Positions 51,694 to 63,551 of a stretch of DNA of 64,000 nucleotides are shown piece after piece. Made by a program: the position numbers and the translations under genes. The notes beneath the pieces were generated by a model. The model did no database searches and was not told the DNA's origin. It saw nothing but the letters and a program-made list of their open reading frames with translations. Location of the stretch: contig NZ_JAEUGD010000023.1 of assembly GCF_016775155.1 (NCBI RefSeq), positions 1-64,000 of the forward strand. The letters run 5' to 3'. Source of the DNA: Fulvivirga marina. Its GTDB lineage: Bacteria; Bacteroidota; Bacteroidia; Cytophagales; Cyclobacteriaceae. Within the stretch, counting starts at the first letter, position 1; each line of letters begins with the position of its first letter.

Positions 51694-52044
51694 ATGAATA
51701 AAGTAGAAGAATTTAACGCATATAGAAGCAAGATGAATGAAAAGATACTTGCTGCTGATAATAAAGTTATAAAAAGAATCTTCAATCTGGACACCAATAC
51801 GTATGCTGAGGGCGCGTTAGATACTAAAACAAAGGAGCTTTTAGGGCTAGTAGCTTCCATGGTACTTAGATGTGACGATTGTGTTAAGTATCATCTGGAA
51901 AAATGTCATGAAATCGGATTTGATAAAAATCAGATGTTTGAAGCATTTGCAGTGGCAAACTTAGTCGGCGGAACAATTGTCATCCCTCATTTGCGAAGAG
52001 CAGTAGAATTTTGGGAGGACCTGGAAGATAATAAGAATGATTAA
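51694..52044 (+). CDS. Carboxymuconolactone decarboxylase family (AhpD-like) protein
   Basis: 116 residues, all-helical. The C-x-x-C motif at C60 and C63 (LRCDDCVKYH) with H67 is the AhpD-type redox site, and VANLVGGTIVIPHLRRA fits the rest of the family. Members are alkylhydroperoxidase-like or decarboxylases; the specific activity is unknown. No AhpC gene nearby. Its stop overlaps the start of the next gene by 8 bp, so the two are translationally coupled. Confidence 0.85.
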   Translation: MNKVEEFNAYRSKMNEKILAADNKVIKRIFNLDTNTYAEGALDTKTKELLGLVASMVLRCDDCVKYHLEKCHEIGFDKNQMFEAFAVANLVGGTIVIPHLRRAVEFWEDLEDNKND

Positions 52045-52408
52045 ACGAGATCTGGAGCTAGAACGTGCGTGGAACGCATTACTTGCGGAATTAGAGCAGA
52101 TTATTGGCAAACGCCCCAAGGACTTGAATGCCGTTTTATTTCTTATAGGGGTACAAGAGTTAGGCAAAGGCGTTAAAGTTTTTGACAAAGAAGAAAAGCA
52201 GGATCTTATGCACATAGCTATATGCAAAGTACTTAGTCTTTCAGGCTTTTATGAGTTAGAGGGACTTGATGAACAAGGTTGGCCACATTGGAAACTTGCA
52301 AAAAAATTACCCCATTTCGATCTTCTCGAACAGGAGAAGCTATTAAAAATGCATGTGATAGAGTATTTTGAAAAGGAAGTTGGGCTTAAAATGAACTATA
52401 AGGATTGA
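52037..52408 (+). CDS. Uncharacterised conserved-looking protein
   Basis: 123 residues, soluble, helical, rich in charged residues. Motifs visible are RPKDLNAVLFLIGVQELGKG and DEQGWPHWKLAKKLPHFDLL, not recognised. Overlaps the AhpD-like gene by 8 bp, implying coupled translation and a shared process. No signal or membrane segment. The gene is probably real by length and coding character; function cannot be stated. Confidence 0.7.
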   Translation: MIKRDLELERAWNALLAELEQIIGKRPKDLNAVLFLIGVQELGKGVKVFDKEEKQDLMHIAICKVLSLSGFYELEGLDEQGWPHWKLAKKLPHFDLLEQEKLLKMHVIEYFEKEVGLKMNYKD

Positions 52409-52519
52409 TTTTGGTTTGAAATGTTTATAAAGGATTATATTTAACCTAGATACAAATGCTATTCAAACTCTGATTAAATTAAATTCGTATAATCTATATT
52501 CTGCAAGTAGTAATCGTGT

Positions 52520-55500
52520 ATGACAGACAATGAACGTCACATTAACGCTAATCTCAGATCGTATAGGAGAAAATATTATCTTAACCTTACGCTCAAGGGT
52601 TTAATAATTTCTCTGGGACTTACTCTATCTATATTTCTCATACTCAATACCCTTGAATATTCCTTCCGATTTAATTCCGTTGTAAGAGCCATATTACTGT
52701 TCTCATTTATCATTTTCGGTTTTTATGCTATGGGAACATACGTCATTTTGCCACTGTATAGAATGATGAGTAAAAAGCATGGGATGACCAATGAAGAAGC
52801 AGCTTTAAAAATTGGATCGATATTTCCTGAAATTGGAGATAAACTTCTGAATATCATACAATTACAAAAACAGAAAGGAGGGCTTGTTGAGGCAAGTATT
52901 ACCCAGAAAACAGAAACAATAAAAAAGTATCATTTCAAAGATGCTGTTGATATTAAGAAAAACAAACGTTATTTAAAGTATCTGTTCGCTCCATTGTTCA
53001 TCATTGCATGGGTACTTGTATTAAGTCCAGCTTTTATTACAACAAGTTCTTCCAGAATTATTCATTTTAATAATGAATTTACCCCTAAAGCTCCATTTAA
53101 CTTTAACATACTCAACGAAAAGCTACTAGCTTTTAAAAACGAAGATTTCACGATATCCCTTGACCTAAGGGGTGAGGCCATTCCAGAAAATGCTTATATT
53201 TTGAATAATGGTAGAAAAATCAAAATGTCTAAGGCTGAATCCAATGTATTCTCATACACTTTCAGAAAGATTCAAAATAATCAAACATTTCAGTTTGAGG
53301 CAGCCGGCTTTACCTCCAGAGAGCATGGTATAAAAGTGGTTAGCAGGCCTAATCTGAGAAGCTTTAATGTTTACCTTCATTATCCCAATTATCTCGGTAG
53401 AAGTAATGAAGTACTTAATAATGTTGGCAATCTTCAGATTCCAGAGGGCACATCAATTAAGTGGCAATTAAAAACTATACAATCAGACGAAGTATTGGTA
53501 AACTTTCAATCAACTGATGAAAGTCATCAGCTTAAGCTTACTGATAAATCAATATTTGAGCTAGAAAAAACATTCAAAAAATCTCAAGTATATAGTATCA
53601 ATCTCAAAAATAAGTACAGCGAAAATAAGGAAAAAATCCTGTACAAAATTGAGGTCATACCTGATCAGCATCCTCAAATAGACTTAAATGTATACCCAGA
53701 CACCACCTTATACTCATTTATTGCTCTTGGAGGCAATATATCCGATGATTACGGCTTAACGAAACTGAAACTATTTTATCAAATACTACAGGGGAGCAAA
53801 GAGTCTGTTTATAAATCCATAGACATACCTATTGCCCGTGCTCAGAATCAACGATACTACTATCAGTGGTTTCTTGATTCCCTGGGACTGACTGAAGACA
53901 CTTCTATTAAATACTTTCTAAAAGTCTGGGACAATGATGGGGTCAACGGCAACAAAGCGTCTAAGACAGGTACTTATATATTCAGATTGCCTTCAAAAAA
54001 AGAGTTAAAACGGGACATAGAGAAAACCACGAGCGAAACTCAGGAGAACATCGATAAAACCATAACTGAAGCAAAGGAACTTAAAGAAAAAATAGAAAGG
54101 GCTGAAAAGAAACTCAAGGGCCAAAAGGAGATGAGTTGGCAAGATGAAAACCTACTCAAAGACATTATTAAGAAAAGAGAGGAACTTAATAAGGCGATTG
54201 ATGAGCTTAAAGAACAAAACAGAAGTAATGAGCTTAAAAGAGAACGGTTTTCCAAGCAAGATAAGCGCATTAAAGAGAAGGTAGAGCAACTCCAGGAGCT
54301 TATGGATGAACTGCTTGACGAAGAAACTAAAAAGCTCTATGACGAGCTTCAAAAGCTACTAGAAGAGCAAAGTGAAATTAATGATATACAGGATGTATTG
54401 GATAAACTTAACAACAAAGAAAACAACCTGGAGAAGGAGCTAGAGCGAACGTTGGAGCTATTTAAAAAAATGAAGTTTGATTACAAGCTTAATGAGGCAA
54501 TAAATGAACTCAAAGAGCAGATCGATGATCAAGAACAGCTTATAAAAGAAACATCAGATAAAAATAAGAAAAACGAAGAATTATCAGAAAAACAGCAAGA
54601 ATTACAAGAACAATTTAAAGAATTCAAAGAGCAGATGAACGCTCTGGAAGAGTTCAACCAAGACTTAAAAAACCCGGAATCTCTCCCTGATATACAAGAG
54701 GAACAACAAAACATAGATAGGGAACAACAAAAGTCTAAAGAATCTCTGGATAAAAACAAAAGAAAGCAATCAAAGGAATCGCAGCAAAATGCCAAAGAAC
54801 AGATGCAAAAAATGGCAAAGCAGATGGAGCAGATGCAAAGCAGCATGGAAATGACCATGATGCAGGAGAACCTGGATGACTTAAGAGATATAGTTCATAA
54901 CTTACTTAAGCTATCATTTGATCAGGAAGAGTTGATGAAAGAGTTCTCTGAAGTAAATCAAAGTGATCCCAGATTTGTAGAACTGGGTCAACAACAGCTC
55001 AAACTAAAAGATGATGCAAAAATTGTTGAAGATAGCTTGCTTTCATTAGCCAATAGAGTATTTCAAATAGCCTCATTTGTAACTCGTGAAGTAGGTAAAA
55101 TGAACAACCACATGGATAAAAGCACGGAAGCCATCAAAGAAAGAAAGAAACCAGTAGCAGTTTCTGAACAACAATTTGCTATGACATCTATAAATAATCT
55201 GGCTCTTTTACTTGATGATGTGCTACAGCAAATGCAAAATGCCATGAGTGATGCCATGGGAAAACCTCAAAAAGGTAAAGGAAAAGACAAAAGTCCATCA
55301 CTAAGTGAACTGCAACAACAACTCAATAATAAGATAGAGAACCTGAAGAAAAGTGGTAAGTCCGGAAGAGAGTTATCAGAAGAACTAGCCAAACTGGCTG
55401 CAGAGCAAGAACGCATTCGACAGGCATTACAACAAATGCAAGAAAAGGCAGGAGAAGGAGATGGTGGAAAAAAACCAGGAGATGGAATTCCACAAAAAAT

Positions 55501-55807
55501 GGAAGAAACAGAAATTGACTTGGTTAATAAGAGAATTACTCAGGAGACTATTAAACGCCAACGTCAAATACTTACAAGGCTTTTAGAAGCTGAAAATGCC
55601 ATGCGTGAAAGAGAACTAGATAAAGAGAGAAAAGGTGAAACCGCTAAAGACTATGAAAAGGCTCTTCCTAAGGCCTTTGAAGAATATTTTAAAATGAAAG
55701 AACAGGAGATAGAGCTACTAAAAACTATACCTCCTAAATTGTATCCATATTATAAAAAGGAAGTTAACGAATACTTTAAAAGACTAGGAAAAGAATCTAA
55801 TAACTAA
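52520..55807 (+). CDS. DUF4175-type membrane-anchored coiled-coil protein
   Basis: 1095 residues. Two N-terminal membrane helices (about 26-46 and 55-80) plus a third (about 148-170), a beta-rich domain (about 170-490), then a very long Glu/Lys/Gln-rich coiled coil (about 495-1000), with several heptad blocks (e.g. EELNKAIDELKEQNRSNELK). The last 80 residues are helical (KRQRQILTRLLEAENAMRER). This is the DUF4175 layout, found in Bacteroidota and alpha-proteobacteria, of unknown function. Downstream gene is 6 bp away, so it heads an operon with the RsbW-like ATPase, ybeY and perhaps mnmG. Confidence 0.82.
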   Translation: MTDNERHINANLRSYRRKYYLNLTLKGLIISLGLTLSIFLILNTLEYSFRFNSVVRAILLFSFIIFGFYAMGTYVILPLYRMMSKKHGMTNEEAALKIGSIFPEIGDKLLNIIQLQKQKGGLVEASITQKTETIKKYHFKDAVDIKKNKRYLKYLFAPLFIIAWVLVLSPAFITTSSSRIIHFNNEFTPKAPFNFNILNEKLLAFKNEDFTISLDLRGEAIPENAYILNNGRKIKMSKAESNVFSYTFRKIQNNQTFQFEAAGFTSREHGIKVVSRPNLRSFNVYLHYPNYLGRSNEVLNNVGNLQIPEGTSIKWQLKTIQSDEVLVNFQSTDESHQLKLTDKSIFELEKTFKKSQVYSINLKNKYSENKEKILYKIEVIPDQHPQIDLNVYPDTTLYSFIALGGNISDDYGLTKLKLFYQILQGSKESVYKSIDIPIARAQNQRYYYQWFLDSLGLTEDTSIKYFLKVWDNDGVNGNKASKTGTYIFRLPSKKELKRDIEKTTSETQENIDKTITEAKELKEKIERAEKKLKGQKEMSWQDENLLKDIIKKREELNKAIDELKEQNRSNELKRERFSKQDKRIKEKVEQLQELMDELLDEETKKLYDELQKLLEEQSEINDIQDVLDKLNNKENNLEKELERTLELFKKMKFDYKLNEAINELKEQIDDQEQLIKETSDKNKKNEELSEKQQELQEQFKEFKEQMNALEEFNQDLKNPESLPDIQEEQQNIDREQQKSKESLDKNKRKQSKESQQNAKEQMQKMAKQMEQMQSSMEMTMMQENLDDLRDIVHNLLKLSFDQEELMKEFSEVNQSDPRFVELGQQQLKLKDDAKIVEDSLLSLANRVFQIASFVTREVGKMNNHMDKSTEAIKERKKPVAVSEQQFAMTSINNLALLLDDVLQQMQNAMSDAMGKPQKGKGKDKSPSLSELQQQLNNKIENLKKSGKSGRELSEELAKLAAEQERIRQALQQMQEKAGEGDGGKKPGDGIPQKMEETEIDLVNKRITQETIKRQRQILTRLLEAENAMRERELDKERKGETAKDYEKALPKAFEEYFKMKEQEIELLKTIPPKLYPYYKKEVNEYFKRLGKESNN

Positions 55808-55813
55808 ATCAGA

Positions 55814-56215
55814 ATGAACACCATTAAAATTCAGATCCCTTCCCTTGCAGAGAACATCCGAATGATCGAGAGCTTTATTGATAATGCGAAGGAAAAGTTT
55901 CAGCTTGATGATGATATCTATGGCAATATAATGATAGCCGTAACAGAAGCTGTCAACAATGCCATCAAGCATGGAAACCAACATGATAAATCAAAGAATG
56001 TTGCATTATCATTATCATTACAAGACAGCCAGATCAGATTTACAATAAGTGATGAAGGAAGAGGCTTTGACTACAAAAACCTACCCGATCCTACGGCACC
56101 AGAGAACTTAGAAAAACCTGGTGGCAGAGGAATATTCCTCATGAAACATCTCTCCGATGAAGTAACTTTCATGGAAGATGGTAAAGTAGTAGAATTAAAC
56201 TTCTATATAAACTAA
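55814..56215 (+). CDS. RsbW-like anti-sigma / ATP-binding protein
   Basis: 133 residues, a single GHKL ATPase domain. N box VTEAVNNAIKHGNQHDKSKN, G1 ISDEGRGFDY, and a G2 loop GGRGIFLMKHLSDEV. Members act as serine kinases that switch off anti-sigma antagonists, or as binding partners of phosphatases. No sigma factor or antagonist gene is seen next to it, so its target is unknown. Tight in the operon: 6 bp from the DUF4175 gene, and its stop shares a base with the ybeY start. Confidence 0.88.
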   Translation: MNTIKIQIPSLAENIRMIESFIDNAKEKFQLDDDIYGNIMIAVTEAVNNAIKHGNQHDKSKNVALSLSLQDSQIRFTISDEGRGFDYKNLPDPTAPENLEKPGGRGIFLMKHLSDEVTFMEDGKVVELNFYIN

Positions 56216-56637
56216 TGCAAGCTGTTAATTTCTTTCAAGAAGATATAGACTTCAAATTAAACAATGAAATCCTTACTACAGACTGGATAAAAACAATCAT
56301 AAGTAAAGAAGGATTTACACTACAAGAGTTAAACTACATATTCTGTTCAGACGAATACTTATATCAAATGAATATCGAGTACTTAAATCATGATACGTAT
56401 ACCGATATCATCACGTTTGACAATTCAGATGAAGAGAATCAAATAGAGGGTGATATATTCATAAGCATAGACAGGGTACAAGACAATGCAGCACAAACAA
56501 ATTCTCATTTCGATGACGAACTAGCCCGTGTATTAATACATGGCGTTTTGCACTTAATAGGATACAAAGACAAGACCTCCATAGAAAAAGATGAGATGCG
56601 TAAAAAAGAAGAAGCTTGTTTATCTTTGCGACCTTAA
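56215..56637 (+). CDS. ybeY: Endoribonuclease YbeY
   Basis: 140 residues. Conserved metal-site region RVLIHGVLHLIGYKDKTSIE supplies two His (HGxxH), followed by EMRKKEEACL. In many bacteria a third His comes as GYDH; here GYKD stands instead, which is a usual variant in this phylum (recollection). Required for 16S rRNA maturation and ribosome quality control. Translation is coupled to the RsbW-like gene (shared base). The region after its stop holds the parS-like palindromes, so transcription from here may or may not read into mnmG. Confidence 0.9.
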   Translation: MQAVNFFQEDIDFKLNNEILTTDWIKTIISKEGFTLQELNYIFCSDEYLYQMNIEYLNHDTYTDIITFDNSDEENQIEGDIFISIDRVQDNAAQTNSHFDDELARVLIHGVLHLIGYKDKTSIEKDEMRKKEEACLSLRP

Positions 56638-56651
56638 TACAACAACTCAAC

Positions 56652-56667
56652 TGTTCCACGTGGAACA
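56652..56667. promoter_or_regulatory. parS-like ParB binding site 1
   Basis: TGTTCCACGTGGAACA, a perfect 16-bp palindrome extended by three further symmetric bases on each side (56649-56670). It is very close to the bacterial parS consensus TGTTTCACGTGAAACA and identical to parS variants seen in other bacteria (recollection, to be checked). Lies between ybeY and mnmG, 67 bp from a second copy. Confidence 0.75.
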
Positions 56668-56718
56668 GTTGCACAACCAGTATCAATACCAATATTTAAG
56701 ATTATAAATTTAACTAAG

Positions 56719-56734
56719 TGTTCCACGTGGAACA
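56719..56734. promoter_or_regulatory. parS-like ParB binding site 2
   Basis: A second TGTTCCACGTGGAACA, symmetric from 56717 to 56736, 20 bp before the mnmG ATG. Two identical palindromes in a 115-bp gap are far beyond chance. The location beside mnmG (gidA) and near a likely origin matches where parS sites occur. Confidence 0.75.
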
Positions 56735-56753
56735 CTCAATAAAATATTAGAAT

Positions 56754-58619
56754 ATGTTCCCGGAATATGATGTTATAGTAGTAGGGGCAGGCCATGCCGG
56801 ATGTGAAGCTGCACATGCAGCAGCTAAAATGGGATCCAAAGTTTTATTAGCTACCATGAATATGAATACGATTGCTCAAATGTCATGCAATCCTGCTATG
56901 GGTGGCGTAGCAAAAGGTCAAATCGTACGAGAGATAGATGCACTTGGAGGAATGTCAGGAATAATATCTGACAAATCAATGATTCAGTTTAGAATGCTAA
57001 ACAAGTCCAAAGGTCCTGCCATGTGGAGCCCTAGAACACAAAATGATCGAATGAGATTTGCTGAAGAATGGCGGCTAACACTAGAAAATACTCCTAATGT
57101 AGATTTTTGGCAAGAAATGGTAACAGGGGTTACGGTACAAAGCAATAAAGTAACGGGTATTACTACAGGTATGGGTATTAATATTAAGGCCAAAGCTGTA
57201 GTACTAACTAATGGAACCTTTCTCAATGGTATCATACATATAGGAGAAAAACAATTTGGAGGCGGAAGAACTGGTGAGCATGCTGCCAAAGGTATTACTG
57301 AACAACTTATTTCTTTAGGTTTTGAAGCAGGTCGCATGAAAACAGGTACGCCTCCAAGAGTGGATGGTAGATCGCTTGACTATAGTAAAATGGAAGAACA
57401 ACGAGGCGATGAAAACCCTGAAAAATTTTCATATAGTTCATTGACAAAACCCTTAGAGAATCAAAAGAGCTGCTTTATAACATACACCAATAATGATGTG
57501 CATGAAATACTTCAAACAGGTTTCGATAAATCTCCCATGTTCAATGGCCGTATTCAAGGTGTAGGCCCACGTTATTGTCCATCAATTGAAGATAAAATTA
57601 ATCGCTTCGCTGAAAGAGATAGACATCAAATATTTGTAGAACCAGAAGGATGGAATACAGTAGAAATATATGTCAACGGCTTTTCTACATCCTTACCAGA
57701 AGATGTTCAATATAAAGCTATGCGCCAAATAGCAGGTTTTGAAAATGCTAAAATGTTCAGGCCCGGCTATGCTATAGAGTATGATTACTTTCCACCAACA
57801 CAACTTAACTTAACGCTAGAAACAAAACTAATAGACAACCTATATTTTGCAGGGCAGATAAACGGAACAACAGGTTATGAAGAAGCTGCCTGTCAAGGAC
57901 TAATGGCAGGAATTAATGCTCATAACAAGATCAATGATACCGAACCTTTTATACTAAAAAGATCTGAAGCATATATTGGTGTACTTATTGATGATCTTAT
58001 CAACAAAGGGACTAAAGAACCATACCGTATGTTTACTTCTCGTGCGGAATTTAGGATATTACTACGCCAAGACAATGCCGATATAAGATTAACTGAAAAG
58101 GGTCATGCTTTAGGGTTAGCTACAGATACGAGATTAAAAGATATGTTAGATAAGAAAAAAGAAGTATCAAAGCTTTTAAATGATCTACAGCAAAAACGAA
58201 TAGAACCGGAAGATGCTAACGAAAATTTAACAAGTATAAAATCTTCACCAATCAAACAAAGAATACCTGTTATAGGCCTTCTAAAAAGACCAGAACTAAA
58301 CATACAGCATCTAAAGTCTTTGAACAGCGATCTTAATACTTATTTAAGCAAATATCATCAGCATGTATTAGAACAAGCTGAGATACTTATAAAATATGAT
58401 AACTACATAGATAAGGAAAAACAGTTGGCTGATAAGATGGAACAACTAGAAGATAAAAAAATAAGAAAGGACTTTGACTACGATCAAATCAAAGCACTTT
58501 CGTCAGAAGCAAAAGAAAAACTAAAAACTATTAAACCGCAGACTATAGGTCAGGCCTCACGAATAAGTGGGGTGTCTCCAGCCGACGTTTCAGTACTGAT
58601 GGTATATTTAAGTAAATAA
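56754..58619 (+). CDS. mnmG: tRNA uridine-5-carboxymethylaminomethyl modification enzyme MnmG (GidA)
   Basis: 621 residues. FAD-binding N-terminus VIVVGAGHAGCEAAHAAA, MnmG signature AMGGVAKGQIVREIDALGG, and QINGTTGYEEAACQGL. With MnmE it places carboxymethylaminomethyl on wobble uridine 34 of tRNAs. Length normal. Placement next to the parS-like sites and 3-5 kb from the origin candidate agrees with its frequent position near oriC in bacteria. The methyltransferase gene follows after 2 bp. Confidence 0.97.
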   Translation: MFPEYDVIVVGAGHAGCEAAHAAAKMGSKVLLATMNMNTIAQMSCNPAMGGVAKGQIVREIDALGGMSGIISDKSMIQFRMLNKSKGPAMWSPRTQNDRMRFAEEWRLTLENTPNVDFWQEMVTGVTVQSNKVTGITTGMGINIKAKAVVLTNGTFLNGIIHIGEKQFGGGRTGEHAAKGITEQLISLGFEAGRMKTGTPPRVDGRSLDYSKMEEQRGDENPEKFSYSSLTKPLENQKSCFITYTNNDVHEILQTGFDKSPMFNGRIQGVGPRYCPSIEDKINRFAERDRHQIFVEPEGWNTVEIYVNGFSTSLPEDVQYKAMRQIAGFENAKMFRPGYAIEYDYFPPTQLNLTLETKLIDNLYFAGQINGTTGYEEAACQGLMAGINAHNKINDTEPFILKRSEAYIGVLIDDLINKGTKEPYRMFTSRAEFRILLRQDNADIRLTEKGHALGLATDTRLKDMLDKKKEVSKLLNDLQQKRIEPEDANENLTSIKSSPIKQRIPVIGLLKRPELNIQHLKSLNSDLNTYLSKYHQHVLEQAEILIKYDNYIDKEKQLADKMEQLEDKKIRKDFDYDQIKALSSEAKEKLKTIKPQTIGQASRISGVSPADVSVLMVYLSK

Positions 58620-58621
58620 TT

Positions 58622-59506
58622 ATGTTTGAAAAACTAACGAACTGCCCGCTATGTAATAGTGGGCGTTTTAATAATTATCTAAGGTGCAAAGACTACACAG
58701 TCTCCGGTAAAGACTTCAACCTGGTCGCCTGTGCAGAATGTAAGTTTATTTATACTAATCCAAGACCACGACCACAAGACCTGCATTTATATTACGAGTC
58801 TAAAGACTATATATCACATAGTAATGAATCTAACAGTCCAATTAACTTTATTTATAAACTCGCTAGAAATTTCACTCTCAAACGGAAAGTTAAACTAGTA
58901 AATAGCTTAAGCCAAAAAGGAACAATACTAGACATTGGTTGCGGAACCGGTCATTTCATTACAGCATGTCAACAAGATGGATGGAGCATTAAAGGTGTTG
59001 AACCAGATAGTAAAGCACGTACAATAGCAGCACAAAAAACGGGTATTGATATAGTGGATGATATATCCAATATAAATGAAACACAGTATGACTTAATATC
59101 CATGTGGCATGTATTGGAACACATTCCTAATCTAAATGAATTCTTTCAACAATTGCTGTGCAAAGTTAAAAAAGATGGTAAGCTTATAATTGCTGTACCT
59201 AATTACAAAAGTCATGATGCACAACACTATAAAAAATATTGGGCTGCTTATGATGTTCCTCGTCACTTGTATCATTTCGATCAAACTGCAATGACTCAAC
59301 TTGCAGATAAATATCAGCTAAAAGTTAATAAGATATTACCCATGTCTCTAGATGCATATTATGTCAGTTTATTAAGTGAATCATATAAAGGGACTGGCAT
59401 ATTAAAATACATTAAAGCACCTTATCGAGGATTTATTTCTAACATGAAAGCCAAAAGCAATAATCTTAACTACTCAAGTTTAATATACATACTAACTAAA
59501 AAATGA
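58622..59506 (+). CDS. Class I SAM-dependent methyltransferase with zinc-ribbon N-terminus
   Basis: 294 residues. N-terminal CPLC...CAEC zinc-ribbon (about 8-45), then the Rossmann fold with ILDIGCGTGHFITACQQDG (motif I) and VEPDSKAR, and MWHVLEHIPNLNEFFQQLL. The substrate is unknown; zinc-ribbon methyltransferases often act on small molecules or cell-surface sugars. Starts 2 bp after mnmG and its last 4 bp overlap the next gene, so it is in the same operon. No membrane segments. Confidence 0.85.
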   Translation: MFEKLTNCPLCNSGRFNNYLRCKDYTVSGKDFNLVACAECKFIYTNPRPRPQDLHLYYESKDYISHSNESNSPINFIYKLARNFTLKRKVKLVNSLSQKGTILDIGCGTGHFITACQQDGWSIKGVEPDSKARTIAAQKTGIDIVDDISNINETQYDLISMWHVLEHIPNLNEFFQQLLCKVKKDGKLIIAVPNYKSHDAQHYKKYWAAYDVPRHLYHFDQTAMTQLADKYQLKVNKILPMSLDAYYVSLLSESYKGTGILKYIKAPYRGFISNMKAKSNNLNYSSLIYILTKK

Positions 59507-61323
59507 ATCGAATTATTTTCATACTCTTAGTATTAAATATAGCTCTCATATCAGCTTGTGCCAATCAAACAGCGCCAACCGGAGGTGACAAAGATGAAAC
59601 TCCTCCAGTCCTGGTATCATCCATACCCAATCAAGGAGAGTTGAACTTTCAAGGTAATGAGATCATACTTACCTTTGATGAACTAATAAAGACCGATAAT
59701 CCAAAAGAACAGTTTCTGATAACACCAAGAATTAAAGATGAATACGACATCAAATATAAAAAGAACAAGGTAATTATTCGGTTTGAAAAACCTCTTGATG
59801 ACAGTACTACATACTCCATCAACTTTCGTGAAGGAATCAAAGACCTAACTGAAGGTAACCCAGCAGATACACTTAAACTAGCATTTAGTACAGGTAGCTA
59901 TCTTGACTCACTAAGCATATCTGGTTATGTATATGACCTTATGACCAATCGTAAGGCTCAAGATATTACCATCGCGATATATGACGCAAAAGATACACTA
60001 GATATATTCAATAGCCCGCCTGTTTACTATACTAAAACGAATTCACAAGGTATATATAATATAGAAAACCTAAAGAACTCAGTATATAAAATATATGCCT
60101 TGCAAGATAAAAATAAAAATCTAACTCTAGAAAGTAAATCTGAAAAGTATGGATTTATTTCAGAAAACATTCATTTAGATAGTAATTTTTCTAAAATAGA
60201 TATTCCCATACAACTATTGGATGTTAGAGATGTTGAGCTACAAAGTTCAAGACCTTCGGGTACCACCTATAGTATCAAATACAACAAACATCTAATAGAC
60301 TACAATATAAACAGCTTAGATTCAACAGTGCATCTATATAGCAACTATACAGATAAAACACACAACACCATACAACTATTTAATGATATAAAATATCAGG
60401 ACAGTATAGCCATATCAATACTAGCAAAAGATTCACTTTTCAATGAAATAACAGATACAATTAAAATCAAATTTGAAGCCACCCAACGCAAACCTGCAGA
60501 CTTTACAGCAATATCTACTATCCCGACAATCATAACTAAAACTCCAGTATTTAAAGCTGAGTTGAAATTCAATAAGCCTGTAAAAAAGATAAACTATGAC
60601 AGTATCTATCTTTATCTCGATAGCGCCAACATTGTATACTTTAAATCAAAAGATTTGAATTGGAACCAACACCGAGACGAGGTTACATTGACGTACGACA
60701 TCGATCCAGCATTATTTATTAGTAAGCCAGAAAACATAGCATCACGAAATAGAAACACACAAAAACCATCTTCTAACGCAGACACTCTTAAAGCTAACCG
60801 AAGAAATATATCAGATTTAAGACAATCAGTAAATGAAACTGATAAAGACAACCAGCTAATAAATAAAAAGCCATCAACTGATAAGGATTCAACAAAGCTC
60901 AAACTAGAGGAACCACAGCAACCACATTTTTATGCGGCACCTTCAACCTTCATTAGTGCTGAATCAGATTCAAGCAAAAGGATAAAGGAAAAGCTCTCTT
61001 TCGTTAAACCAGAGGAGTTAGGAGTCCTACTAATGGATATACAAACTGATTACAAACATTACTTTGTACAGCTTATCAATTCTAAATATGAAGTCATAGC
61101 TGAAGAAGTAAACGGCAAAACCTTTCAATTTAAAAATATTGAACCAAGTGAATATAGGATAAGAATACTTGTGGATAGTAATCTTAATGGAATTTGGGAT
61201 TCAGGTAATGTAAAGAATAATCAAGAACCAGAACCCGTTATTTTCTATAAAAATAGCGAAGGAAACGAAATACTTACACTAAGAGCAAACTGGGAGTTAG
61301 GGCCAAACGTTATATCATTTTGA
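59503..61323 (+). CDS. Ig-like (Big_5) domain lipoprotein
   Basis: 606 residues. Lipoprotein signal with C19 (IALISACANQT). N-terminal Big_5/SbsA-like Ig domain (about 30-130: PPVLVSSIPNQGELNFQGNE, TFDELIK, TTYSINFREGI), followed by carnitine-like peptidase-regulatory and beta-rich domains. Surface-exposed protein of unknown function. Overlaps the methyltransferase gene by 4 bp. It is the last gene before the origin candidate; its stop at 61323 touches the first DnaA box. Codon use here is strongly A-rich with C over G on this strand. Confidence 0.75.
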   Translation: MNRIIFILLVLNIALISACANQTAPTGGDKDETPPVLVSSIPNQGELNFQGNEIILTFDELIKTDNPKEQFLITPRIKDEYDIKYKKNKVIIRFEKPLDDSTTYSINFREGIKDLTEGNPADTLKLAFSTGSYLDSLSISGYVYDLMTNRKAQDITIAIYDAKDTLDIFNSPPVYYTKTNSQGIYNIENLKNSVYKIYALQDKNKNLTLESKSEKYGFISENIHLDSNFSKIDIPIQLLDVRDVELQSSRPSGTTYSIKYNKHLIDYNINSLDSTVHLYSNYTDKTHNTIQLFNDIKYQDSIAISILAKDSLFNEITDTIKIKFEATQRKPADFTAISTIPTIITKTPVFKAELKFNKPVKKINYDSIYLYLDSANIVYFKSKDLNWNQHRDEVTLTYDIDPALFISKPENIASRNRNTQKPSSNADTLKANRRNISDLRQSVNETDKDNQLINKKPSTDKDSTKLKLEEPQQPHFYAAPSTFISAESDSSKRIKEKLSFVKPEELGVLLMDIQTDYKHYFVQLINSKYEVIAEEVNGKTFQFKNIEPSEYRIRILVDSNLNGIWDSGNVKNNQEPEPVIFYKNSEGNEILTLRANWELGPNVISF

Positions 61324-61634
61324 TGTGGATAAGTGTGGATTAACTCTGTGGAAATCTAAAGTTAACATGTGCTTAACCTCAATATTGAGTCAAAAAACAA
61401 AAACTTCTGTTGATTAATAAAGTTAAGTTGACTTGTTAATTATAAAATCCACAGACTTATACAGTACCGTATAATTATCCACAATTAAGAAGTCAAAATG
61501 TTAACATCTTATAACTCACATATTTTCAGTAAGTTACAACATTTAATGAGTGTGGATAACTAATAGAAAACAATCAATACATCCACAACTTAAAAAAACA
61601 AGATATAAATTAAGTATTTATCCACGTATCCACA
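61324..61634. other. DnaA-box cluster of the candidate replication origin
   Basis: Boxes, consensus TTATCCACA on either strand. Perfect: 61324-61332, 61475-61483, 61551-61559. One mismatch: 61334-61342, 61618-61626, 61626-61634. Two mismatches: about 61347, 61445, 61579. Nine boxes in about 310 bp is far above chance. No gene is present, and top-strand GC skew changes sign across it. Confidence 0.8.
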
Positions 61635-61700
61635 TTATAATAGATAATAATAACTTTAATATATAATAGAATATATAATATAGAGCTGTGTGAATTGTTA
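61635..61700. other. AT-rich candidate unwinding element (DUE)
   Basis: About 50 bp of almost pure A/T (TTATAATAGATAATAATAAC, then ATATAATAGAATATATAATA) follow the last DnaA boxes and precede the TPR gene. This is the expected shape of an origin's duplex-unwinding element. Confidence 0.7.
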
Positions 61701-61712
61701 ATAAATGGATCT

Positions 61713-63551
61713 ATGAAAAAATTTTTCATCTTTACTCTTTTTACATTTATATCTTTGATTGCCACTGCTCAATCTCAGGAAGTCCGGTTGGCCAATGAAT
61801 ATTATTCTCAAGGTGAATATGAGAAGGCTAAAAAATTATACGACGATCTTGCTCGGGATTTGAATAATATACCACTTATCCACAATAACTATTTCTTTTT
61901 GTTGGTAGAGCTGGCTGAGTACAAGGAGGCCGAAAAATATGTTAAGCGCCTGATCAAAAACTTTCCCAATAATCTCTATTATCAGCTCGATCTCGGAGTA
62001 TTATTGAAAAGTTCCGGTCAAGAATCACAATCCCAAAAATACTTTGATAACATAATAGATGAGATTAAGTACGATAACTACCGTACACGCATAACTGCCG
62101 ACTACTTTGTAAATAAACAGTTAACCAACATGGCTATCCGTACATTTAAGGATGCACGAACTGCTATTAATAATCAGTATGCCTATGCACTGGAGATGGC
62201 CAATATTTACCGAATCATGAATGAAAAGGATCTGATGGTTCAGGAGTACTTAAATTATGTGAGTCAAAACCCTTCTAACCTGAACTATGTAAAGAATACA
62301 CTTCAAAGTCTGCTTGCAAAACCCGAAGAGCTCCAAAGTTTGGAAATGTTGCTTTATGACAAAATCCAGAACGAACCAAATAGCGAAATATATGGTGAAT
62401 TACTTATTTGGGTTAATCTTCAACAAAAGAATTTCTATGGTGCATTTATTCAGGCACGAGCGATTGATAAAAGACTGAGAACTGAAGGTAGCAGAAGTAT
62501 TAACATTGGTCTAATGGCTCTGGAAAATAATGACTACAACAGTGCCATTAAAGTATTTACCTATATCATAAAAGAGTTTCCGGGTACTTATAATTACCTA
62601 TTAGCAAAAATGTATCTGATAAAGTCTTATGAGAAACGCGTCAGAAATACTTATCCTATAGATGAACGCGAGATACGTAACCTAATTAATGACTATAACA
62701 ATTTTATCAGCGAGTTAGGTATTACCAGAAATACACTCGAGGCTTTGCGAAATAAAGCACTGTTGCATGCATTCTATTTGGATGAAAAAGACTCTGCCAT
62801 TACTATCTTGAAACAGATTATTGCTACTCCACGTGCTAATCCGGATATTAAGGCCAGATCTAAGCTGGATTTAGGGGATATCTACATATTGACTGAAGAG
62901 CCATGGGAATCCACATTGCTCTATTCGCAGGTTGAAAAATCTCACAAGGAGGATCTACTGGGCTATGAAGCCAAACTAAGAAATGCAAAACTCTCGTACT
63001 ACAAGGGAGATTTTCAGCTTGCTCAGGAGCACTTGGATATACTGAAACAAGCCACTACGCGTGAAATAGCTAACGATGCCATGGCATTAAGCCTATTGAT
63101 AAAAGATAATATAGCTTTCGATAGTACTGAGACCGCTATGAAAAAATATGCGGCCATAGAATTGATGCTCTTTCAAAATAAAATCGCGCCGGCGCTTCGC
63201 GCCATACAAGCCATGCGTGAAGAATACGCCGGTCATAGTTTATCTGATGAGCTTTTATGGAAAGAGGCCGATATACAAAAGAAACTGGGTCATTTTGAAG
63301 TAGCCATTTCACTACTTCAGAAAATTGTAGATGAATACGATACTGATATCCTAAGCGATGATGCTTACTTTACTCTTGGTTCTATCTATGATCGACAACT
63401 TAATGATCCTCAAAAGGCCATGGAAATATACAAAACCTTTCTTACCAAATATCCAGGTAGTGTTTATGTTGCAGAGGCCAGAAAGCGTTTTAGACAGCTG
63501 CGAGGTGATTACAATATGCATGAAGGAAAATTGCAAAATAATGAGTTATAA
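61713..63551 (+). CDS. Periplasmic TPR protein
   Basis: 612 residues from ATG 61713 (MKKFFIFTLFTFISLIATAQ), a typical signal peptide; an upstream ATG at 61695 adds 6 residues and is less likely. Multiple TPR units follow (e.g. EYYSQGEYEKAKKLYDDL, LGDIYILTEEPWESTLLY, AYFTLGSIYDRQLNDPQKAM). A protein-interaction scaffold; no partner can be named. The first gene right of the origin candidate, transcribed away from it. A perfect DnaA box (61876-61884) lies inside it. Followed by an acyl-CoA ligase gene. Confidence 0.82.
   Translation: MKKFFIFTLFTFISLIATAQSQEVRLANEYYSQGEYEKAKKLYDDLARDLNNIPLIHNNYFFLLVELAEYKEAEKYVKRLIKNFPNNLYYQLDLGVLLKSSGQESQSQKYFDNIIDEIKYDNYRTRITADYFVNKQLTNMAIRTFKDARTAINNQYAYALEMANIYRIMNEKDLMVQEYLNYVSQNPSNLNYVKNTLQSLLAKPEELQSLEMLLYDKIQNEPNSEIYGELLIWVNLQQKNFYGAFIQARAIDKRLRTEGSRSINIGLMALENNDYNSAIKVFTYIIKEFPGTYNYLLAKMYLIKSYEKRVRNTYPIDEREIRNLINDYNNFISELGITRNTLEALRNKALLHAFYLDEKDSAITILKQIIATPRANPDIKARSKLDLGDIYILTEEPWESTLLYSQVEKSHKEDLLGYEAKLRNAKLSYYKGDFQLAQEHLDILKQATTREIANDAMALSLLIKDNIAFDSTETAMKKYAAIELMLFQNKIAPALRAIQAMREEYAGHSLSDELLWKEADIQKKLGHFEVAISLLQKIVDEYDTDILSDDAYFTLGSIYDRQLNDPQKAMEIYKTFLTKYPGSVYVAEARKRFRQLRGDYNMHEGKLQNNEL

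Follow-up and report, generated by a model that had tools for sequence, protein, structure and literature searches.

A very probable chromosomal replication origin between a lipoprotein-like gene and a TPR-repeat gene in a Fulvivirga-like member of the Cytophagales

Where does chromosome replication start in a Fulvivirga-like genome whose dnaA gene gives no indication of the place? Within the window (the whole stretch of 64,000 nucleotides that was analysed), an earlier note had pointed to a probable oriC in the gap between a lipoprotein gene and a TPR gene, not next to dnaA or dnaN. This proposal is supported by a conserved position, a conserved box module, nearby parS sites and skew polarity, and the agreement of these several lines of sequence evidence indicates that the gap is very probably the oriC. 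The neighbours were also as described, dnaA lying on a different contig. The features on which the argument is built are the following, in window coordinates:

56652 to 56667, no strand assigned: parS site 1 (TGTTCCACGTGGAACA), from the parS scan
56719 to 56734, no strand assigned: parS site 2, from the parS scan
56754 to 58619, plus strand: mnmG (gidA), left neighbour (PF01134, E 5e-165)
59503 to 61323, plus strand: lipoprotein-like protein that carries a Big_5 domain and flanks the putative oriC on the left, called a lipoprotein from reading its start
61324 to 61712, no strand assigned: very probable oriC, intergenic region of 389 bp (box, alignment and conservation evidence)
61324 to 61332, minus strand: perfect DnaA box TTATCCACA, from the box scan
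61334 to 61342, minus strand: one-mismatch DnaA box TAATCCACA, from the box scan
61475 to 61483, plus strand: perfect DnaA box, from the box scan
61551 to 61559, minus strand: perfect DnaA box, whose aligned column reads TGTGGA in 13 of 18 sequences
61618 to 61634, plus strand: tandem DnaA boxes TTATCCAC-GTATCCACA at an 8-bp step, pointing toward the AT-rich block
61635 to 61690, no strand assigned: probable unwinding element, AT-rich, opening with conserved TAATA(G/A)ATAATAATAA-like triplets (unwinding predicted)
61713 to 63551, plus strand: TPR-repeat protein, right flank of the putative oriC and landmark for the comparisons
61876 to 61884, plus strand: perfect DnaA box near the beginning of the TPR coding sequence, a position shared by several congeners

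The gap contains no ORF of at least 60 aa in the ORF list, in agreement with the earlier statement that no gene lies in between; for the TPR ORF, an ATG lies at 61713 and the mechanical start is a TTG at 61695. The three perfect, three one-mismatch and weaker boxes described previously were all recovered: the one-mismatch boxes start at 61334 (minus), 61618 (plus) and 61626 (plus), and seven more sites with two mismatches are present in 61324-61712, for a total of 13 at no more than two mismatches. This intergenic cluster exceeds chance, as expected of an oriC. In 2000 first-order Markov resamplings of the gap's own 389 bp, boxes with at most one mismatch had a mean of 0.19 and a maximum of 3 (6 observed), and those with at most two mismatches a mean of 2.3 and a maximum of 10 (13 observed). 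Genome-wide, TTATCCACA is not enriched (99 copies in the 6.78-Mb draft versus 96 for the reversed pattern), yet three perfect boxes per 500 bp are found in the gap only, with a maximum of 2 anywhere else, so the box is exceptional by its clustering and not by its abundance. When boxes were counted per 400 bp over 324 kb of the contig, the five highest counts started at 61170-61551 and the next one outside the oriC was 3. The tandem pattern TTWTCCACNTATYCACA has a single exact match in the genome, at 61618 to 61634. An AT-rich stretch adjoins the boxes, as AT content and conservation would have it for an origin with a putative unwinding site: the peak touching the gap reaches 85% AT over 60 bp, a value matched by 0.09% of the 60-bp segments in the 324 kb read. 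The block is thus AT-rich as claimed, 'extreme' being slightly too strong a word for it. The only other pair of perfect boxes within 500 bp is located on contig C65 (102554 and 102567, 13 bp apart). An Rfam scan of the window identified two tRNAs and nothing else.

The TPR protein was searched in 58 genomes, own included, and found in 51 of them, among which 13 of 14 congeners, the best segments showing 92% identity to Fulvivirga kasyanovii and 82% to F. imtechensis. Loci were compared for the best-scoring 30 of the 51 matching genomes, own included, one of them (L031) being cut by a contig end. At least four boxes with no more than one mismatch are present in the 700 bp preceding the TPR gene in all 29 testable loci (own and 28 relatives), compared with none of 1318 control 700-bp pieces from non-origin stretches of four congeners. 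Masked bases occur in three of the sampled stretches (L079, 5000; L099, 10637; L120, 822); skew was computed from G and C only, and the separate background box densities of G004, G006 and G011 come out slightly low on this account. A tandem box pair, with at most two mismatches per box, is found in 26 of the 30 loci (8-bp step in 24, 9-bp step in 2) and in 10 of 1507 control pieces. Across an alignment of 18 of the 30 loci much of the gap drifts and one module is still recognisable, consisting of two same-direction boxes, a few bases and then the TAATA(G/A)ATAATAATAA-like triplets. When the comparison was widened to 25 genomes, remote members of the order included, each with about 10 kb on either side, 21 of them had at least four boxes in the 700 bp; the exceptions at the TPR gene are G050 (3 boxes), G044 (2), G055 (1) and G047 (0). 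The position is therefore kept in relatives, as an oriC should be, in all 29 testable loci, with four of the 25 genomes of the wider set carrying three boxes or fewer; it is stable within the genus and the family members examined, not across the whole order. Exact parS and tandem-box strings were also considered as class-wide markers and rejected, since they match in just 21 and 10 of 198 genomes, respectively, and neither marks the whole class. In locus L148 (G043), 13 boxes with at most one mismatch, 7 of them perfect, occur on the left flank of the TPR gene, within 8.8 kb of the origin, together with a second box cluster about 1.4 kb upstream, and the origin in this family is perhaps two-part.

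The dnaA gene of the own genome lies on contig C12, and in the closed congeners it is 1.2 (G014), 0.9 (G004), 1.3 (G006) and 1.0 Mb (G011) away from the gap, so that the textbook layout of an origin next to dnaA is absent from the own genome and the four closed congeners. Such a separation is expected, since oriC is commonly reported far from dnaA in Bacteroidetes, as stated with reference to DoriC in a passage of the Prevotella intermedia paper (PMC4755523). The dnaA locus was considered as a second origin and rejected, with one box at no more than one mismatch in 4.4 kb.

The parS consensus used in the scan is a TGTTCCACGTGGAACA-like palindrome. At no more than one mismatch it has just two occurrences in the genome, both between ybeY and mnmG and 4.6-4.7 kb from the gap, which were absent from the earlier note; mnmG itself is 2.7 kb from the gap, with two genes in between. 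The four closed congeners carry all their parS copies of this threshold at the corresponding place, 4.8-5.1 kb away from where the TPR gene starts, and at no more than two mismatches parS is present in the 20-kb neighbourhood of 23 of 25 genomes, being absent from G055 and G047. A single ParB-family match is present in the genome, located on contig C63. Palindromes near the origin together with a parB gene in the genome are the signature of chromosomal parS, for which ParB binding is predicted, and the pair represents probable centromere sites.

The cluster might alternatively be a DnaA reservoir or a DnaA-regulated promoter of the TPR gene (datA- or DARS-like), the real origin being elsewhere. 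The boxes are indeed situated where the TPR promoter is expected, and a further box-rich region occurs 5-11 kb away. However, three perfect boxes cluster nowhere else in the genome, the dnaA locus has its single box at no more than one mismatch in 4.4 kb, and skew polarity, parS, and the conserved tandem boxes with the AT block all coincide at the gap. This explanation is highly unlikely.

GC skew was the check proposed with the earlier reading, under which the minimum would lie at the gap. The draft consists of 69 contigs, and skew was therefore analysed on the 324 kb of the window's contig and in closed congeners. The polarity came out as predicted, the switch being displaced: on the contig the cumulative curve reaches its lowest point between about 40 and 48 kb, which is 13-21 kb short of the gap on its left side, and then climbs to the end with local reversals. 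Twenty stretches of 20 kb were sampled in each of G014, G004, G006 and G011, and the predicted sign was found in 68 of the 80 (16, 18, 18 and 16 of 20, respectively), a count that includes one value of -0.000 and some values within 0.01 of zero. The sign was also as predicted in 9 of 10 stretches of G026 and in 6 of 10 of G039, where the values are near zero and amount to no signal. In this distant relative (locus L142), the chromosome measures 9 Mb and 13 boxes fall within the 700 bp at this place, with almost no GC skew in the ten stretches sampled. The raw switch is located 30-70 kb toward the mnmG side in G004 and G006 and is blurred in G011 and G014; it thus sits at the gap or tens of kb mnmG-ward, where genes run one way. 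In the window, all eight called ORFs in the roughly 10 kb left of the putative oriC (51694-61323), including mnmG, point toward the origin and would therefore be head-on to a leftward fork.

These displaced minima raise the possibility of a true origin 13-70 kb to the left, at the raw sign change, in line with the contig minimum and with the switch of G004 and G006 between -70 and -30 kb in TPR orientation. Against it, no box cluster occurs there (outside the oriC the maximum is 3 per 400 bp over 324 kb), and the displacement is consistent with genes to the left of the gap all running the same way. Moreover, fourfold sites in plus-strand genes place the step at the gap or to its right: their skew passes from -0.24..-0.34 in the 12 kb on the left to -0.05..-0.13 in the 12 kb on the right in all five genomes, turning positive only past +12 kb in G000. 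The step is unclean, the bin just left being more negative than the next one out in four of five genomes, and minus-strand genes (1-3 per bin) rise in two and fall in three. It is weaker than it appears because the left flanking genes are homologous across the five genomes, and because of the bin beyond -12 kb and the minus-strand genes. Raw and fourfold skew bracket the gap without pinning it, and an origin farther left is most unlikely. Finally, the origin of an integrated plasmid or chromid, which a draft of 69 contigs might suggest, is a negligible prospect, given that four one-contig congeners carry the orthologous place on a 4.1-7.0 Mb chromosome, that the neighbours in the window include the household genes ybeY and mnmG, and that no replication-initiator family appears among the seven neighbouring proteins scanned.

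We therefore hold with high confidence, on sequence grounds, that the gap is the chromosomal oriC of this Fulvivirga-like Cytophagales member, with an AT block that DnaA would open and segregation that would rely on parS. DnaA would bind the high-affinity boxes at 61324, 61475 and 61551 and the tandem pair at 61618/61626, and an oligomer growing from the tandem pair would probably open the AT-rich 61635-61690. The helicase would then be loaded and two forks would depart in opposite directions, while ParB, encoded on another contig, may bind the parS pair that lies 4.6-4.7 kb leftward and segregate the new origins. According to passages of PMC8287927 and PMC10721633, the boxes of Bacillus subtilis and several other bacteria direct DnaA to triplets in the neighbouring DNA, with 3'-GAT-5' on a 5' tail beside the boxes as the preferred form. 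Here, a run of three 3'-TAT-5' triplets was read by eye on the minus strand, at a distance of 9 bp from the second box; 3'-GAT-5' is absent from it, so that the triplets gave no match to the preferred DnaA-trio on the expected strand. For the basal unwinding system (BUS), composed of DnaA boxes, a spacer and DnaA-trios, the relaxed pattern asks for three or more 3'-NAN-5' triplets no farther than 16 bp from a box; the triplets here fit this relaxed form only, and it is easily satisfied in AT-rich DNA. The triplet-bearing strand reads 5'-TTATTATTATC, which resembles the T-rich unwinding strand of Escherichia coli. We propose that DnaA is loaded from the tandem pair into 61635-61690 by either strand-binding mode. 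The origin is well built but ordinary for bacteria, another case of an already known kind.

The least ordinary feature is the box-rich, one-sided and strand-biased flank 5-11 kb to the right, which is possibly DnaA-titrating. Beyond the window, positions 66349-72571 of contig C16 (L004 2349-8571) harbor five perfect boxes over 6.2 kb, of which four fall within ORFs, whereas perfect boxes elsewhere outside the oriC never exceed 2 per 8-kb stretch and random placement of 95 boxes reached five in 6.3 kb in 0 of 2000 trials. Box density near the origin is thus above the genome background, as predicted for a region that binds and titrates DnaA. At no more than one mismatch, 14, 12, 13 and 17 boxes are found 0.3-12 kb to the right in G000, G014, G004 and G006, respectively, and 2 in G011; pooled over the first four, the minus strand carries 44 of them against 12 for the plus strand, and the left side of the same genomes has 1-5 such boxes in 10.8 kb. 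In 9.7 kb of right flank, G007 has 10 boxes and G009, G010, G012 and G013 have 0-4, and none of 15 genomes outside the genus exceeds 5. The excess, which was noticed after looking and without prior prediction, therefore concerns five of the ten genus genomes with enough sequence (G000, G014, G004, G006 and G007). It was first assumed to be chance, an assumption rejected by permuted 9-mers of the same letters, which equalled or exceeded the box count in 0 (G000), 0 (G014), 2 (G004), 0 (G006) and 7 (G007) of 400 cases, and in at least 85 of 400 in the other 20 genomes of the 20-kb set; with only 7.5 kb available, F. kasyanovii gave 93 and F. imtechensis 22 of 400. Some boxes are common to G000 and G014, and likewise to G006 and G007. 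When the genes lying past about 3.7 kb in G000 and G014 were compared by blastp (E 1e-8) with those of the same stretch in G004, G006 and G007, no match was obtained, so inheritance of a single gene does not by itself explain the excess. In E. coli a box excess near oriC, biased to the lagging strand, is discussed as DnaA titration in the relevant part of PMC12371093. It is possible, though we put it somewhat short of an even chance, that this lineage maintains, in addition to oriC, a one-sided belt on the right replichore (C16 66.3-72.6 kb) that titrates DnaA, made of scattered in-gene boxes, in genes that differ between lineages, with TTATCCACA mostly on the strand opposed to fork movement; duplicated right after initiation, such a belt would soak up DnaA and be rebuilt in whatever genes are present.

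A literature search for Fulvivirga and oriC returned no paper, a result that concerns this search and not other papers or databases such as DoriC. The present locus gives one Cytophagales genus a precise, testable origin with probable centromere sites, in a phylum whose origins are not marked by dnaA, and may serve for genome orientation, growth estimates from coverage and the building of oriC plasmids. The box-rich flank could offer a comparative test, outside enterobacteria, of selection for near-origin DnaA sites that time replication.

Among known systems, the oriC of E. coli lies between gidA and mioC. By layout it resembles the gap in having mnmG/gidA nearby, boxes toward an AT-rich unwinding region and, on one of the strands, TTATT-like repeats lying 5' to the boxes; it differs in that here mnmG is 2.7 kb off with two genes between, and parS sites are present. 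Plasmids based on the oriC of Cytophaga hutchinsonii were reportedly described by Xu et al. in 2012. Notes in the plasmid tables of PMC5891637 and PMC5288383 mention such plasmids, in which a Cytophagales chromosomal origin acts as a plasmid replicon, a likeness by description and not by sequence. Predicted oriCs of Bacteroidetes (DoriC/Ori-Finder), for example that of Prevotella intermedia OMA14 as presented in part of PMC4755523, have multiple boxes at the skew transition and a long distance to dnaA; the gap shares the boxes and the distance, with skew of the predicted polarity around it. For the present gap, two parS sites and mnmG lie in the vicinity, and the position is conserved over the genus and most family members examined. 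The BUS of B. subtilis oriC (passages of PMC8287927, PMC10721633 and PMC6669920) similarly has tandem boxes beside a triplet tract, whereas here the expected strand bears three 3'-TAT-5' and not 3'-GAT-5'. Finally, the titrating region of E. coli, as outlined in part of PMC12371093, shares with the right flank dense near-origin boxes and a one-strand bias, while the flank described here is one-sided, spans about 12 kb, is predicted from sequence and belongs to part of one genus.
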